A stretch of DNA of 33,345 nt from an uncultured Clostridium sp. (GTDB lineage Bacteria > Bacillota > Clostridia > TANB77 > CAG-508). How positions within the stretch are numbered: position 1 is the first letter of the stretch; every line of letters starts with the position of its first letter. The position numbers and the translations under genes were made by a program. Under the pieces are notes generated by a model. The model made no database searches. It saw only the letters and a list, made by a program, of their open reading frames with translations, and was not told the DNA's origin. The stretch covers positions 1-33,345 of the forward strand of contig CAMUHU010000012.1 of NCBI GenBank assembly GCA_947088765.1. Reading direction: 5' to 3'. This document shows, piece by piece, positions 6,674-12,477 of the stretch.

Positions 6674-6701
6674 CACCGAGAAAAGTATAATTTTCTCAGT
6701 G
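6674..6701 (-). terminator. Module terminator T1, downstream of protease copy A
   Basis: CACCGAGAAAA and TTTTCTCAGTG form a stem with one mismatch; on the minus strand the hairpin is followed by a T run. It belongs to a family of near-identical hairpins that bracket the protease modules (also 8424, 10190 and 12478, with a half copy at 11897). Confidence 0.75.
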
Positions 6702-6750: not shown

Positions 6751-7683
6751 TTATGCTGATTGAATATGAGCTTGTATACGATTATATAAATCTGCATTTA
6801 TCCTAACCGCACTATTGTAATAACATACACCATTTTCTAGATGTTCTGTTGCTATAATTCCAACAATCTTTCCTGAATCCAAAGACATAACTGGTGCTCC
6901 GTTATCTCCATATTCTATATCACATAAAGTCTTTAAGTAGCGATCTCCTGCTGCAGATATACTATTAGTATCCTGCCACATCTGAAATCCTTTATTTTTA
7001 GGATATCCGACTGTGGAAGCTTTGAGTCCTATATAAAGAGTATAATTATTGTTATAGCTGACTCCAAGCCAAGAATTAAAACTTGTATCCAAATCTACAA
7101 TGCCCCAATCCCATAAAACGTTTTTATTATTTGCCCATTCGTCATTTGATGTTAATTTAGTAGCATGAGCTGTTCCATAAGGACGATTGTATCCATCTGA
7201 ATTTAATGCTGGTATTACTGTTACTACTTTAGCCCAACCACCATTATCATGTGAATACACCATATCACCTGACGTTAGCATGACGGTGCTGTAAACTAGA
7301 GAACCCGTCCCTCTCCTTACAGTGCCATCAGGAAATGTTGATTCAACATAACAAATAGCATTATAAGGATATACAGTTGTATTACTAACTGCAATTCTAT
7401 CGTCAGGACCAATTATTCCTGTAGGAGAAATTTCCTCACCATTTACTCCGTCGGTTTCAGCACTGTCTGTATCTTCGTGAATATAGTTTTGGTCAGCTCC
7501 ATATGTGATTTTTCCTGTTTCCACATCGTAAGTAATACTTGTGCCATACTCCTGTTTCTCTGTGATATCAACAGGGTTCTCCCTGTTTTCTGCCGCATAA
7601 ACATTCGTACCTGCAAGTATTATTGCTAAAACTAAACCAAAGCTTACTATCCGTTTAATTATTGTTGCTATCTTTTTCTTCAT
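6751..7683 (-). CDS. Secreted V8-like (S1 family) protease homologue lacking catalytic His and Ser
   Basis: 310 residues. The start is the ATG at 7683, served by GGAGG 7 bases upstream. A signal peptide (KKKIATIIKRIVSFGLVLA to NVYAA) is followed by a propeptide-like region with TGKITYGADQ, then a trypsin/V8-like fold. Compared with the paralogue at 8554-9488, the catalytic Asp remains (WDWGIVDL, D192), but the His of TSGHVIY is Asp (TSGDMVY, D140) and the Ser of GESGG is Asn (GDNGAP, N261). The reading frame is intact and a good promoter lies upstream, so this looks like an expressed secreted pseudoenzyme rather than random decay. It could bind substrate, act as a decoy or regulate a sibling. 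It follows a broken Big_14-like gene and is ended by T1. Confidence 0.8.
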   Translation of the reverse strand: MKKKIATIIKRIVSFGLVLAIILAGTNVYAAENRENPVDITEKQEYGTSITYDVETGKITYGADQNYIHEDTDSAETDGVNGEEISPTGIIGPDDRIAVSNTTVYPYNAICYVESTFPDGTVRRGTGSLVYSTVMLTSGDMVYSHDNGGWAKVVTVIPALNSDGYNRPYGTAHATKLTSNDEWANNKNVLWDWGIVDLDTSFNSWLGVSYNNNYTLYIGLKASTVGYPKNKGFQMWQDTNSISAAGDRYLKTLCDIEYGDNGAPVMSLDSGKIVGIIATEHLENGVCYYNSAVRINADLYNRIQAHIQSA

Positions 7684-7763
7684 TGAGATACCTCCATTTT
7701 TTCTTTTAACTATATGTGTCATTTTTTATGTGCAATTCGCAATTCTACGAATAGTACAGTAAT

Positions 7764-7792
7764 ATTTTACTCTTAAGTTAATGTTTTGTCAA
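7764..7792 (-). promoter_or_regulatory. Promoter of protease copy A, with upstream direct repeats
   Basis: TTGACA (7787-7792), 17 bases, TAAAAT (7764-7769) on the minus strand, about 80 bases before the ATG. Two ATTTACCA motifs about 19 bases apart lie directly upstream of the -35. The same arrangement recurs before copy B, so a shared regulator is possible. Confidence 0.6.
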
Positions 7793-7905
7793 TATTTGGT
7801 AAATCCTTTACAATATGGTAAATATTTGCAATGTTTGTCCTTTAAATATTATTTTTTTACTCACTTCTTCTTAGTTATGTAATATCATTTTTTATTATTT
7901 GTAAT

Positions 7906-8335
7906 TTACTCAATAACAAATTCAACATATAGTTCTTTTTCTCCTTCGGATGTATCCACTGATTTTACTATTCTATATTCTCCATTTTCTAATGCCCCAT
8001 ATCTTTCAGACCAATCTAGGTCAAAATCTAGTTCTCTTGAAGAAGTAGACATACTGACTGCTTTAACAAAGTATGTTCCGTTTTACACATTTCCACTCGT
8101 TATTTTCTTTCTTTTCTATTCTATAATCTTCTGTTTCTCCATAGTTATTTTTTTTATCATTGTTCTTTATGATTATTTTTGCACTTGTCCTTGTTAATGT
8201 TCCTTCTTTTATAATCATTGTTAGATCTGAGTTACCATCATTAAATATACTTTTATTTAATATCATAAATATAGCAACTGATATTACAACAAGTATTACT
8301 AAAACAATCAATGTGATTATTAACCCTTTTTTCAT
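7906..8335 (-). pseudogene. Big_14-like membrane-anchored protein, copy A, frameshifted
   Basis: It starts at ATG 8335 (AAAAGG 8 bases upstream) as MKKGLIITLIVLVILVVISV, an N-terminal membrane anchor, then the Ig-like TLTRTSAKIIIKNND, YRIEKKENNEWK. Near 8080 the frame breaks: the open frame ends NILC at 8063, while GTYFVKAVSM through DWSERYGALENGEYRIVK to YVEFVIE continues in another frame to the stop at 7906. One extra base (the G at 8080 on the plus strand, C in the gene) accounts for it, and the length otherwise equals the intact copies. The fold resembles the Big_14 bacterial Ig-like family; this is from memory, not a search. The spoiled copy is paired with the spoiled-active-site protease A. 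Confidence 0.75.
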
Positions 8336-8423
8336 TATTATCACCTTTTCCCTTCAATGTTTGGATATTTTTATACTAGCATACTATTTTCATATTTCAA
8401 CTATTACAATAATATTTAAAAAA

Positions 8424-8553: not shown

Positions 8554-9488
8554 TTAATCAAAGTGTTCCTTTATTCGACTACATAAATCAGAGGTTATTC
8601 GGACATGAAAATTTGCATATTCTTCATTAGGTGTAATTTCTTTATAACCTGCAATAACTCCTATAAGCATTCCAGTCCTATCATCAATAAGTGCACCTCC
8701 ACTTTCACCTTTAGTGAAGTCACATAAAGCCATATACCAGTATTCTGTAACATTAGATATACTATTAGTATCAGAATACATATAATAGTAATGACCTTCT
8801 TCGTCTGGATACCCAATAGCCGTCACACTTGTGCCTAATTGGTTATAGTAATTATCATAATATCCGAATGATTGCCAAGTACTATAGCCTTTCTTCAAAT
8901 CCAAAATAGCCCAATCCCATTCATGGTTACCGTTGACAGTCCATTCTTCGTTAGAAGTTAAATTCATAGCATAAGTAGAGCCTAAAGGCTCACTGTCCTT
9001 TCCATTTTTTGCAGGTGTTACTTTTACATGATAAGCCCATCCACCAAGTTCTTTATCATATATGACATGACCAGATGTTAACAATACATCAGAATATACT
9101 AAAGTACCACTACCTTTTTTAACTTTATTATTCTTAAAGTATGCTTCAATATAGCAAATATTTCGGTATGGACTGTCAGTCGTGTTTGTAATACGAACTC
9201 GATTATCAAGACCAATAATACCATTATACAGTGGACTTATACCATACTCATCATATTGTATTGCATATGAACTTGCATCAGATAAATCACCAGTCTGGTC
9301 AGCACCATATGTGATTTCTCGTGTTTCCACATTGTATGTGATACTTGTAGCATACTCTTGCTCATCTGTACTGTCAACAGTAGTAACCTCTCCTTCTGTT
9401 GCATAAACGTTTGTACACGTCAGCATCATTGCCAATACAATCCGAAGCTTACCATCCGTTTAATTATTGTTGCTATCTTTTTCTTCAT
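8554..9488 (-). pseudogene. V8-like (S1 family) protease copy B: intact catalytic triad, signal peptide broken by a 1-base deletion
   Basis: The mature part is open from 9435 to 8554 and keeps all three catalytic residues: His in TSGHVIY, Asp in WDWAILDL, Ser in GESGGAL, as in V8/glutamyl-endopeptidase-like S1 proteases. The true start (ATG 9488, GGAGG site upstream, same as copy A) reads KKKIATIIKRMVSFGL, then shifts frame to a stop. Compared with copy A one base is missing near 9437, which would restore GLVLAMMLTCTNVYA. The open frame at 9435 begins with TTG and has no ribosome-binding site. As sequenced, the protein is not secreted and probably not made. It follows the intact Big_14-like gene at 9674-10099 and ends at T2. 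Confidence 0.8.
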
Positions 9489-9564
9489 TGAGATACCTCC
9501 ACTTTCTTAACTATATGTGTCATTTTTTATGTGCAATTCGCAATTCCACGAACAGTACAGTAAT

Positions 9565-9593
9565 ATTTTACTCTTAAGTTAGTGTTTTGTCAA
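9565..9593 (-). promoter_or_regulatory. Promoter of protease copy B
   Basis: TTGACA (9588-9593), 17 bases, TAAAAT (9565-9570) on the minus strand, in a leader almost identical to that of copy A, including the two upstream TTACCA motifs. Confidence 0.6.
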
Positions 9594-9673
9594 TATTTGG
9601 TAAATCCTTTAAAATATGGTAACTATTTGCAATTTTTGTACCTTTATAATATTATTTTTTTATTATTTGTAAT

Positions 9674-10099
9674 TTACTCAATAACAAATTCAGCATATAG
9701 TTCTAGTTTTCCTCCTTCTGTATCCAGTGTTTTTACTATTCTATATTCTCCATTTTCTAATTCTCCATATCTTTCAGCCCAATCTAAGTTAAACTTTAGC
9801 TCTCCTGTTAAAGTACCCATCGAAATTAGTAAAAATGAATGTTGTCCTATTTGTTTTACAGGTATCCAATCTTCATTTTCTTTTTTTTCTATGCTATAGT
9901 TTTCTCCATAGCTATGTTCTTTATCATTATCTTTTATAATTACTGTTGCACTTGTTCTAGTTAATGTTCCTTCTTCTATTGTCATAGTTATTTCTGATCC
10001 ACCTTTATTAAACATACTTTTATTTAATATTATAAATATAGCAACTGATATTACAATAAGTGTTACTAAAACCATTAATATTATTAATCCTTTTTTCAT
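9674..10099 (-). CDS. Membrane-anchored Big_14-like Ig-domain protein, copy B
   Basis: 141 residues from ATG 10099 (AAAAGG 8 bases upstream; the longer frame from 10108 starts with GTG inside that site). An N-terminal membrane anchor (GLIILMVLVTLIVISVAIFI) is followed by an outside domain with TMTIEEGTLTRTSATVII, YSIEKKENEDW, LDWAERYGELENGEYRIVK and a terminal AEFVIE. The pattern resembles the Big_14 bacterial Ig-like family; function is unknown. No lipobox is seen. This is one of three paralogues here (with 7906-8335 and 11966-12391), each originally followed by a V8-like protease on the same strand. A surface partner, substrate or inhibitor of the protease would fit, but that is inference. 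Confidence 0.75.
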   Translation of the reverse strand: MKKGLIILMVLVTLIVISVAIFIILNKSMFNKGGSEITMTIEEGTLTRTSATVIIKDNDKEHSYGENYSIEKKENEDWIPVKQIGQHSFLLISMGTLTGELKFNLDWAERYGELENGEYRIVKTLDTEGGKLELYAEFVIE

Positions 10100-10189
10100 T
10101 ATTATCACCTTTTTCCCTTCAATCTTTCGATATTTTTATACTGGCATACTATTTTTATTATTTCAATTATTACAATAATATTTTAAAAA

Positions 10190-10320: not shown

Positions 10321-10553
10321 TTAATCAAAGTGTTCCTTTATTCGACTACATAAATCAGAGGTTATTCGGACATGAAAATTTGCATATTCTTCATTAGGTG
10401 TAATTTCTTTATAACCTGCAATAACTCCTATAAGCATTCCAGTCCTATCATCAATAAGTGCACCTCCACTTTCACCTTTAGTGAAGTCACATAAAGCCAT
10501 ATACCTGTATTCTGTAACATAAGATATACTATTATATCAGAATACATATATTA
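10321..10553 (-). pseudogene. V8-like protease copy C, C-terminal fragment
   Basis: Nearly identical at DNA level to the 3' end of copy B and its downstream region (about 10110-10553 against 8345-8790). It keeps the GESGGAL serine motif and the EHFD terminus. A 2-base deletion relative to B breaks the frame near 10535, and similarity stops at about 10553, where recombinase-derived sequence begins. It is a recent duplication, truncated on its 5' side. Confidence 0.8.
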
Positions 10554-11965: not shown

Positions 11966-12391
11966 TTACTCAATAACAAATTCAGCATATAGTTCTTTTT
12001 TTCCTTCAGTTGTATCCACAGATTTTACTATTCTATATTCTCCATTTTTTAATTCTCCATATCGTTCAGACCAATCTAATTTACATTCTATTTTTCCATC
12101 TTTTCCAGGTATCAGTCCAAGAAGATTAAATGGATAACTATTAATTTCATTTATCGATTTCCACTCGCCATTTTCTTTTTTATCTATACTATAACTTTCT
12201 CCACAACTATAATCATTTTTACTTTCTAAAATAATTGTTGCACTCTGCCTTGTTAATGTTTCCTTTTGTATTGTCATTGTTATATCTGCTTTACCTTCAT
12301 TAGATACATTTTTGTCTAACATTATAAATACAGCAAATGACATTATAATAAGTATTACTAAAACCATTAATATTATTAATCCTTTTTTCAT
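11966..12391 (-). CDS. Membrane-anchored Big_14-like Ig-domain protein, copy C
   Basis: 141 residues from ATG 12391, placed as in copies A and B with an AAAGG site 8 bases upstream; the frame extends to 12454 but without a ribosome-binding site. An N-terminal anchor (GLIILMVLVILIIMSFAVFI) is followed by TMTIQKETLTRQSATIILES, YSIDKKENGEWKSI, LDWSERYGELKNGEYRIVK and AEFVIE. It is the intact end copy of the tandem family, nearest parB. Its protease partner is missing: a half terminator (CACCGAAAA near 11897) and the toxin-antitoxin locus follow directly. A possible promoter is TTGAAA with TAGTAT 17 bases on, about 50 bases upstream of the ATG. Function unknown. Confidence 0.75.
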   Translation of the reverse strand: MKKGLIILMVLVILIIMSFAVFIMLDKNVSNEGKADITMTIQKETLTRQSATIILESKNDYSCGESYSIDKKENGEWKSINEINSYPFNLLGLIPGKDGKIECKLDWSERYGELKNGEYRIVKSVDTTEGKKELYAEFVIE

Positions 12392-12477
12392 TATTATCAC
12401 CTTTCTCCTTATGTTTGATATTTTTATACTAGCATAATATTTATATTTTTTCAATTATTATAATAATATTAAAAAAA

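Follow-up and report, generated by a model that had tools for sequence, protein, structure and literature searches.

In the chymotrypsin mechanism of serine proteases, His57 acts as the general base and Ser195 as the nucleophile. Pseudoproteases have been well studied in animals. The described bacterial enzymes closest to the gene analyzed here are the S1B glutamyl endopeptidases, including the Bacillus intermedius enzyme (1p3c), staphylococcal V8 protease (1qy6) and Esp (4jcn), a group in which His213 is part of the S1 pocket for glutamyl specificity (PMC5508998). Serine protease homologues (SPHs), trypsin-family proteins with substituted essential catalytic residues, have also been reported from prokaryotes, and of 247 trypsin-like proteins surveyed in 91 prokaryotic genomes, 2 were inactive (PMC2605481). 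In the Clostridia, CspC of Clostridioides difficile is a pseudoprotease that acts in a circuit with its active relative CspB (PMC6636752, PMC4619724).

The window analyzed here is the whole 33,345-nucleotide stretch of contig CAMUHU010000012.1 from an uncultured Clostridium sp., a gut-type Clostridia genome in which a secreted V8-like protease homologue, referred to as copy A, is encoded by an intact gene. The gene occupies positions 6751..7683 of the minus strand as an open frame of 310 amino acids, with its ATG at 7683 and its stop codon at 6751-6753. The product begins with a hydrophobic signal peptide (residues 1-30, 7594..7683, minus strand) that ends NVYA|AE, with the cleavage site (|) placed by inspection, followed by a pro-region of about residues 31-88 (7420..7593, minus strand), residue 90 being aligned to residue 2 of mature 1p3c. 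A ribosome binding site, GGAGG, recognized by inspection, lies 7 nt before the ATG (7691..7695), a sigma-A type promoter, TTGACA-17-TAAAAT, lies further upstream (7764..7792), and an intrinsic terminator with an 11-bp stem and a T run follows the 3' end (6674..6701), all on the minus strand. The original prediction of an intact secreted frame with intact signal peptide, ribosome site and promoter is therefore correct in its coordinates, strand and signals. Just upstream of the -35 box, at ~7785-7825 on the minus strand, are two direct repeats of approximately ATTTACCA, ~22 bases apart, which, as judged by eye, resemble a regulator site with LytTR-type spacing.

Sequence similarity across the mature domain places copy A in subfamily S1B. 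In a single-sequence search, 1p3c matched residues 90-277 with an E-value of 1.7e-8, and a family profile compared with solved structures gave 1p3c at 4.5e-43, followed by V8 protease at about 2e-26. The Pfam Trypsin_2 model scored barely above its cut-off, and the NCBIfam search assigned no family. Outside the bacterial family, a class-wide search with the single copy A sequence gave nothing stronger than weak matches, and two scans of viral contigs found no homologue. Two structure prediction runs, each with a 4-sequence alignment, gave models with mean pLDDT of 41 and 49, the latter having a fairly confident N-terminal barrel. For the poor model, the matches listed by Foldseek were chymotrypsin-like proteases, with 1p3c and V8 near the top and TM-scores below 0.5. 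Since these models do not allow active-site geometry to be judged, the argument about the site is made from sequence only.

Homologue-aligned columns place Asp140 (GAT, 7264..7266, minus strand) at the position of the catalytic His57, in LTSGD for LTAGH, and Asn261 (AAC, 6901..6903, minus strand) at the position of Ser195, in GDNGAP for GDSGGP, while the catalytic Asp102 is kept as Asp192 (GAT, 7108..7110, minus strand) in WDWGIV. Because H, D and S are present at these columns in all 45 other full-length homologues of the active set, the D/D/N of copy A is no alignment accident, and both replacements, originally proposed from the window, are confirmed by the S1 alignment. In place of the His57-Asp102-Ser195 triad of active S1 serine peptidases, copy A and its orthologue have D-D-N, and copy A combines an intact frame and fold motifs with replaced catalytic residues, as expected of a serine protease homologue. 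The protein contains five His residues in all, the one near the site being His145; active homologues have both His145 and the catalytic His, so His145 is ancestral. A different His/Ser pair filling the site, the outcome that would have undone the original prediction, was rejected at the sequence level on this ground. With neither a general base nor a nucleophile, copy A should be incapable of classical serine-protease hydrolysis, and there is strong support for its being a catalytically dead S1B homologue as judged from its residues.

An orthologue of copy A is present in a sister species (genome G002, contig CAOKMR010000039.1, from an uncultured Clostridiaceae bacterium), at the same position in an array adjoining parB. 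The two proteins are 99% identical and share the same Asp and Asn. Both genomes are fragmented (156 and about 160 contigs) and the sister is a metagenome-assembled genome, circumstances that could raise the suspicion of sequencing or assembly error; but the recurrence of the same two substitutions in an independent sister-species assembly indicates that they are fixed and makes such an error extremely unlikely. Five codons differ between the two genes. Three changes are nonsynonymous, at residues 20, 23 and 58 in the signal peptide and pro-region, while the other two, both synonymous, fall in the mature part, whose protein sequence is 100% identical except for two extreme C-terminal residues absent in G002. 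If changes fell at random, as under neutrality, both mature-part changes would be synonymous with a chance of about 0.07, which is suggestive of constraint, but weakly. The substitution pattern on which the idea of retention could be checked thus leans in its favor without settling it, and since copy A is seen in two sister species only, with five changes in total, the direct signal of selection is weak.

The locus of copy A is a tandem array. Copy B (8554..9488, minus strand) is a paralogue with intact H/D/S whose signal peptide is disrupted by a 1-nt deletion near 9439, so that in this genome the locus may encode no active protease that is exported; the related copy B' in G002 is intact. Initiation at a TTG at 9435 would yield a copy B product with a shortened leader. 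Copy C (10324..10536, minus strand) is a 3' fragment; the 300-nt block in which it lies matches the 3' portion of the copy B unit at 99% identity. The array around copy A is decaying, with copy B frameshifted, copy C truncated, and one gene for a Big_14 (Ig-like) protein broken. From the promoter through the leader to the first part of the signal peptide (7600-7860 and 9430-9660), A, B and B' are mostly 80-100% identical, whereas per 60-nt block the mature part of copy A is only about 40-70% identical to either B copy, a pattern that points to homogenized 5' ends joined to mature domains that are old and diverged. As it has its promoter and signal peptide in common with the active copies, copy A, if expressed, should give a secreted product controlled in the same way as theirs.

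These patches of identity, together with the near-identical block in B and C and an order of array copies that differs between the two species, could also be read as signs that copy A is a silent donor cassette, valuable as recombination material in the array rather than through its product. That reading is improbable, as copy A is equipped with a promoter, ribosome site and terminator of its own, its mature sequence is the same in both species, and no mosaic active copy with A-like mature segments was seen among the homologues.

Triad loss was found to recur in relatives. A survey of the same bacterial family covered 390 genomes and about 50 full-length homologues; among profile matches weaker than about 45 bits, the majority proved to be short stretches of other frames and were left out. 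Triad losses without a restored nucleophile occur in four separate lineages (about 4 of 49 homologues), comprising copy A and its orthologue (D/D/N), the copies in G034 (E/N/T, with an additional two-residue deletion at the Ser loop) and G416 (D/N/E), and that in G285, in which Ser is changed to Asp. Lineages other than that of copy A thus include open frames in which no triad residue is left. The tree requires five separate changes when one Ser-to-Cys replacement is counted, and four are required even if only its starred branches are considered. The clearest case is the G416 copy, in which 24 of 26 conserved positions outside the triad are kept but 0 of 3 catalytic ones (hypergeometric 0.003 under random placement of changes), and the dead copies of G416 and G285 adjoin an active paralogue. 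The Ser-to-Cys homologue, in G343 (L112:969-1805), has His and Asp intact and is a possible cysteine-nucleophile variant that may be active. In another bacterial family (G724), a weak homologue in a 560-codon frame (L062:1306-2985) has its three triad columns occupied by A, N and G, in an uncertain alignment.

The position of the catalytic His is acidic in three of the four dead lineages (D in copy A, E in G034, D in G416), a pattern noticed post hoc that may be due to chance. It would also fit a rebuilt site, in which Asp140, Asp192 and Asn261 bind a metal or catalyze another reaction, making copy A a new type of enzyme. This is very improbable, as copy A shows no obvious nucleophile or general base, its remaining His residues are either ancestral or distant in sequence, and the four dead lineages have no common set of replacements.

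The broken neighbors of copy A, the many frameshifted homologues in the family and the confinement of copy A to two sister species would all fit early decay, in which copy A was only recently freed from selection for activity and has kept its frame by chance. The retention of the frame was compared with a neutral simulation, in which three active homologues accumulated substitutions until neither the His nor the Ser codon remained. With substitutions only, 0.35-0.5% of runs ended with an open frame, and with modest indels about 0.1%; when loss of all three triad residues was required, the frame was open in 0.075% of runs without indels and in 0/4000 with them. In the family tree, the copy A branch (0.75) is not longer than those of its active neighbors (0.71-0.77), so its rate shows no sign of relaxed constraint, and copy A keeps 20 of the 26 non-catalytic positions conserved in active homologues, compared with 20-23 in its active siblings. 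Between copy A and its paralogues, DNA identity over the mature part is no more than about 55%, and synonymous sites are expected to be saturated. Decaying relatives show the opposite pattern, as frame-broken homologues (G002:C92, G003:C13, G058:C3, G130:C46, G144:C5, G186:C11, G249:C1) keep H, D and S wherever their pieces cover these residues; decay in this bacterial family looks like frameshifting with the triad intact, the reverse of copy A. The many frameshift-split homologues suggest frequent pseudogene formation or phase variation.

Early decay is unlikely given the rarity of open frames in the simulation, the absence of rate acceleration, and the reversed pattern in decaying relatives. 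Plain decay, the outcome set against retention in the original prediction, is thus not favored, and other lineages with open, triad-less frames also speak against it. The retained pseudoenzyme proposed there is supported, though not proven, by the same observations and by the conserved positions kept. Maintenance of copy A by selection is moderately, if indirectly, supported by these sequence comparisons, and the independent, repeated triad loss in relatives suggests that it is probably kept as a non-cutting pseudoprotease. Overall, a probability of about two in three is given to the reading that copy A is a secreted, folded S1B homologue, unable to cut peptide bonds and kept as a pseudoprotease.

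The array also contains genes for small membrane-anchored Big_14 proteins, all on the minus strand: a frameshifted gene upstream of copy A (7909..8353), which is intact in G002, an intact gene upstream of copy B (9674..10108), and a further intact gene at 11966..12400. In 30 protease-bearing genomes, 33 Big_14 matches were counted, and 23 of these have a protease gene within 1.5 kb, compared with 0.12 expected. Protease/Big_14 pairs occur in 17 genomes, with the Big_14 gene upstream, downstream, divergent or convergent (further examples of linkage are L014:1379-2056 and L010:2215-3298). The pairing is not exclusive, since Big_14 proteins were found in 7 of 20 genomes in which a profile search found no protease, one of the seven being below the family cut-off. 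Among the dead copies, that in G034 is adjoined by an intact Big_14 gene, and a degraded Big_14 gene lies between the G416 pair. A Pfam search of the Big_14 proteins gave no convincing match beyond Big_14 and no known protease-inhibitor family, and a literature search found no paper joining Big_14 with a protease. From the gene linkage we infer that Big_14 proteins may be binding partners of these proteases, acting as inhibitor, receptor or tether.

Supposing that copy A is retained, it could possibly, if doubtfully, serve as a non-cutting binder, whose cleft would still engage a peptide, an inhibitor or a partner. In that role it would be a decoy or competitor in a circuit of active paralogues and linked membrane-anchored Big_14 proteins. 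Against this stands the broken state of the Big_14 gene beside copy A in this genome. Such a binder or decoy role is a guess from sequence features, and adhesion or host-ligand binding may be considered as other candidate roles. A broader scheme, in which the proteases, their repeatedly evolved dead copies and the Big_14 proteins would form one extracellular control module, is rather unlikely as a whole; here the dead copies, in which the His position is often acidic, would be decoys titrating substrate or Big_14, itself the cognate inhibitor or receptor. The presence of at least four triad losses, two of them beside an active paralogue, often near a conserved gene for an Ig-like partner, constitutes a natural experiment. 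The repeated losses could show how secreted enzymes become binders, and the linked partner gene offers a directly testable interaction.

Compared with the known systems, copy A resembles the S1B glutamyl endopeptidases in being a secreted pre-pro-protein with the same order of motifs, and the mature starts are alike (IIGPDDR and VIGDDGR). It differs from them in having Asp for His57 and Asn for Ser195, and the position of His213 is not His in copy A, where GII aligns to the GVH of 1p3c, or in its nearest active paralogues. A literature search found no paper joining glutamyl endopeptidases with pseudoproteases. With the prokaryotic SPHs (PMC2605481) copy A shares the substitution of essential catalytic residues in a trypsin-family protein, and it probably belongs to this known kind, which is rare among bacterial trypsin-like proteins. 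The proportion of dead copies is higher here, at about 4 of 49 from at least four separate losses, than the 2 of 247 in that survey (Fisher p 0.008), with differing criteria and sampling in the two cases. Like copy A, CspC is a pseudoprotease of the Clostridia, and it works without cutting; unlike copy A, it is subtilisin-like, with an unrelated fold, and has its role in spore germination.
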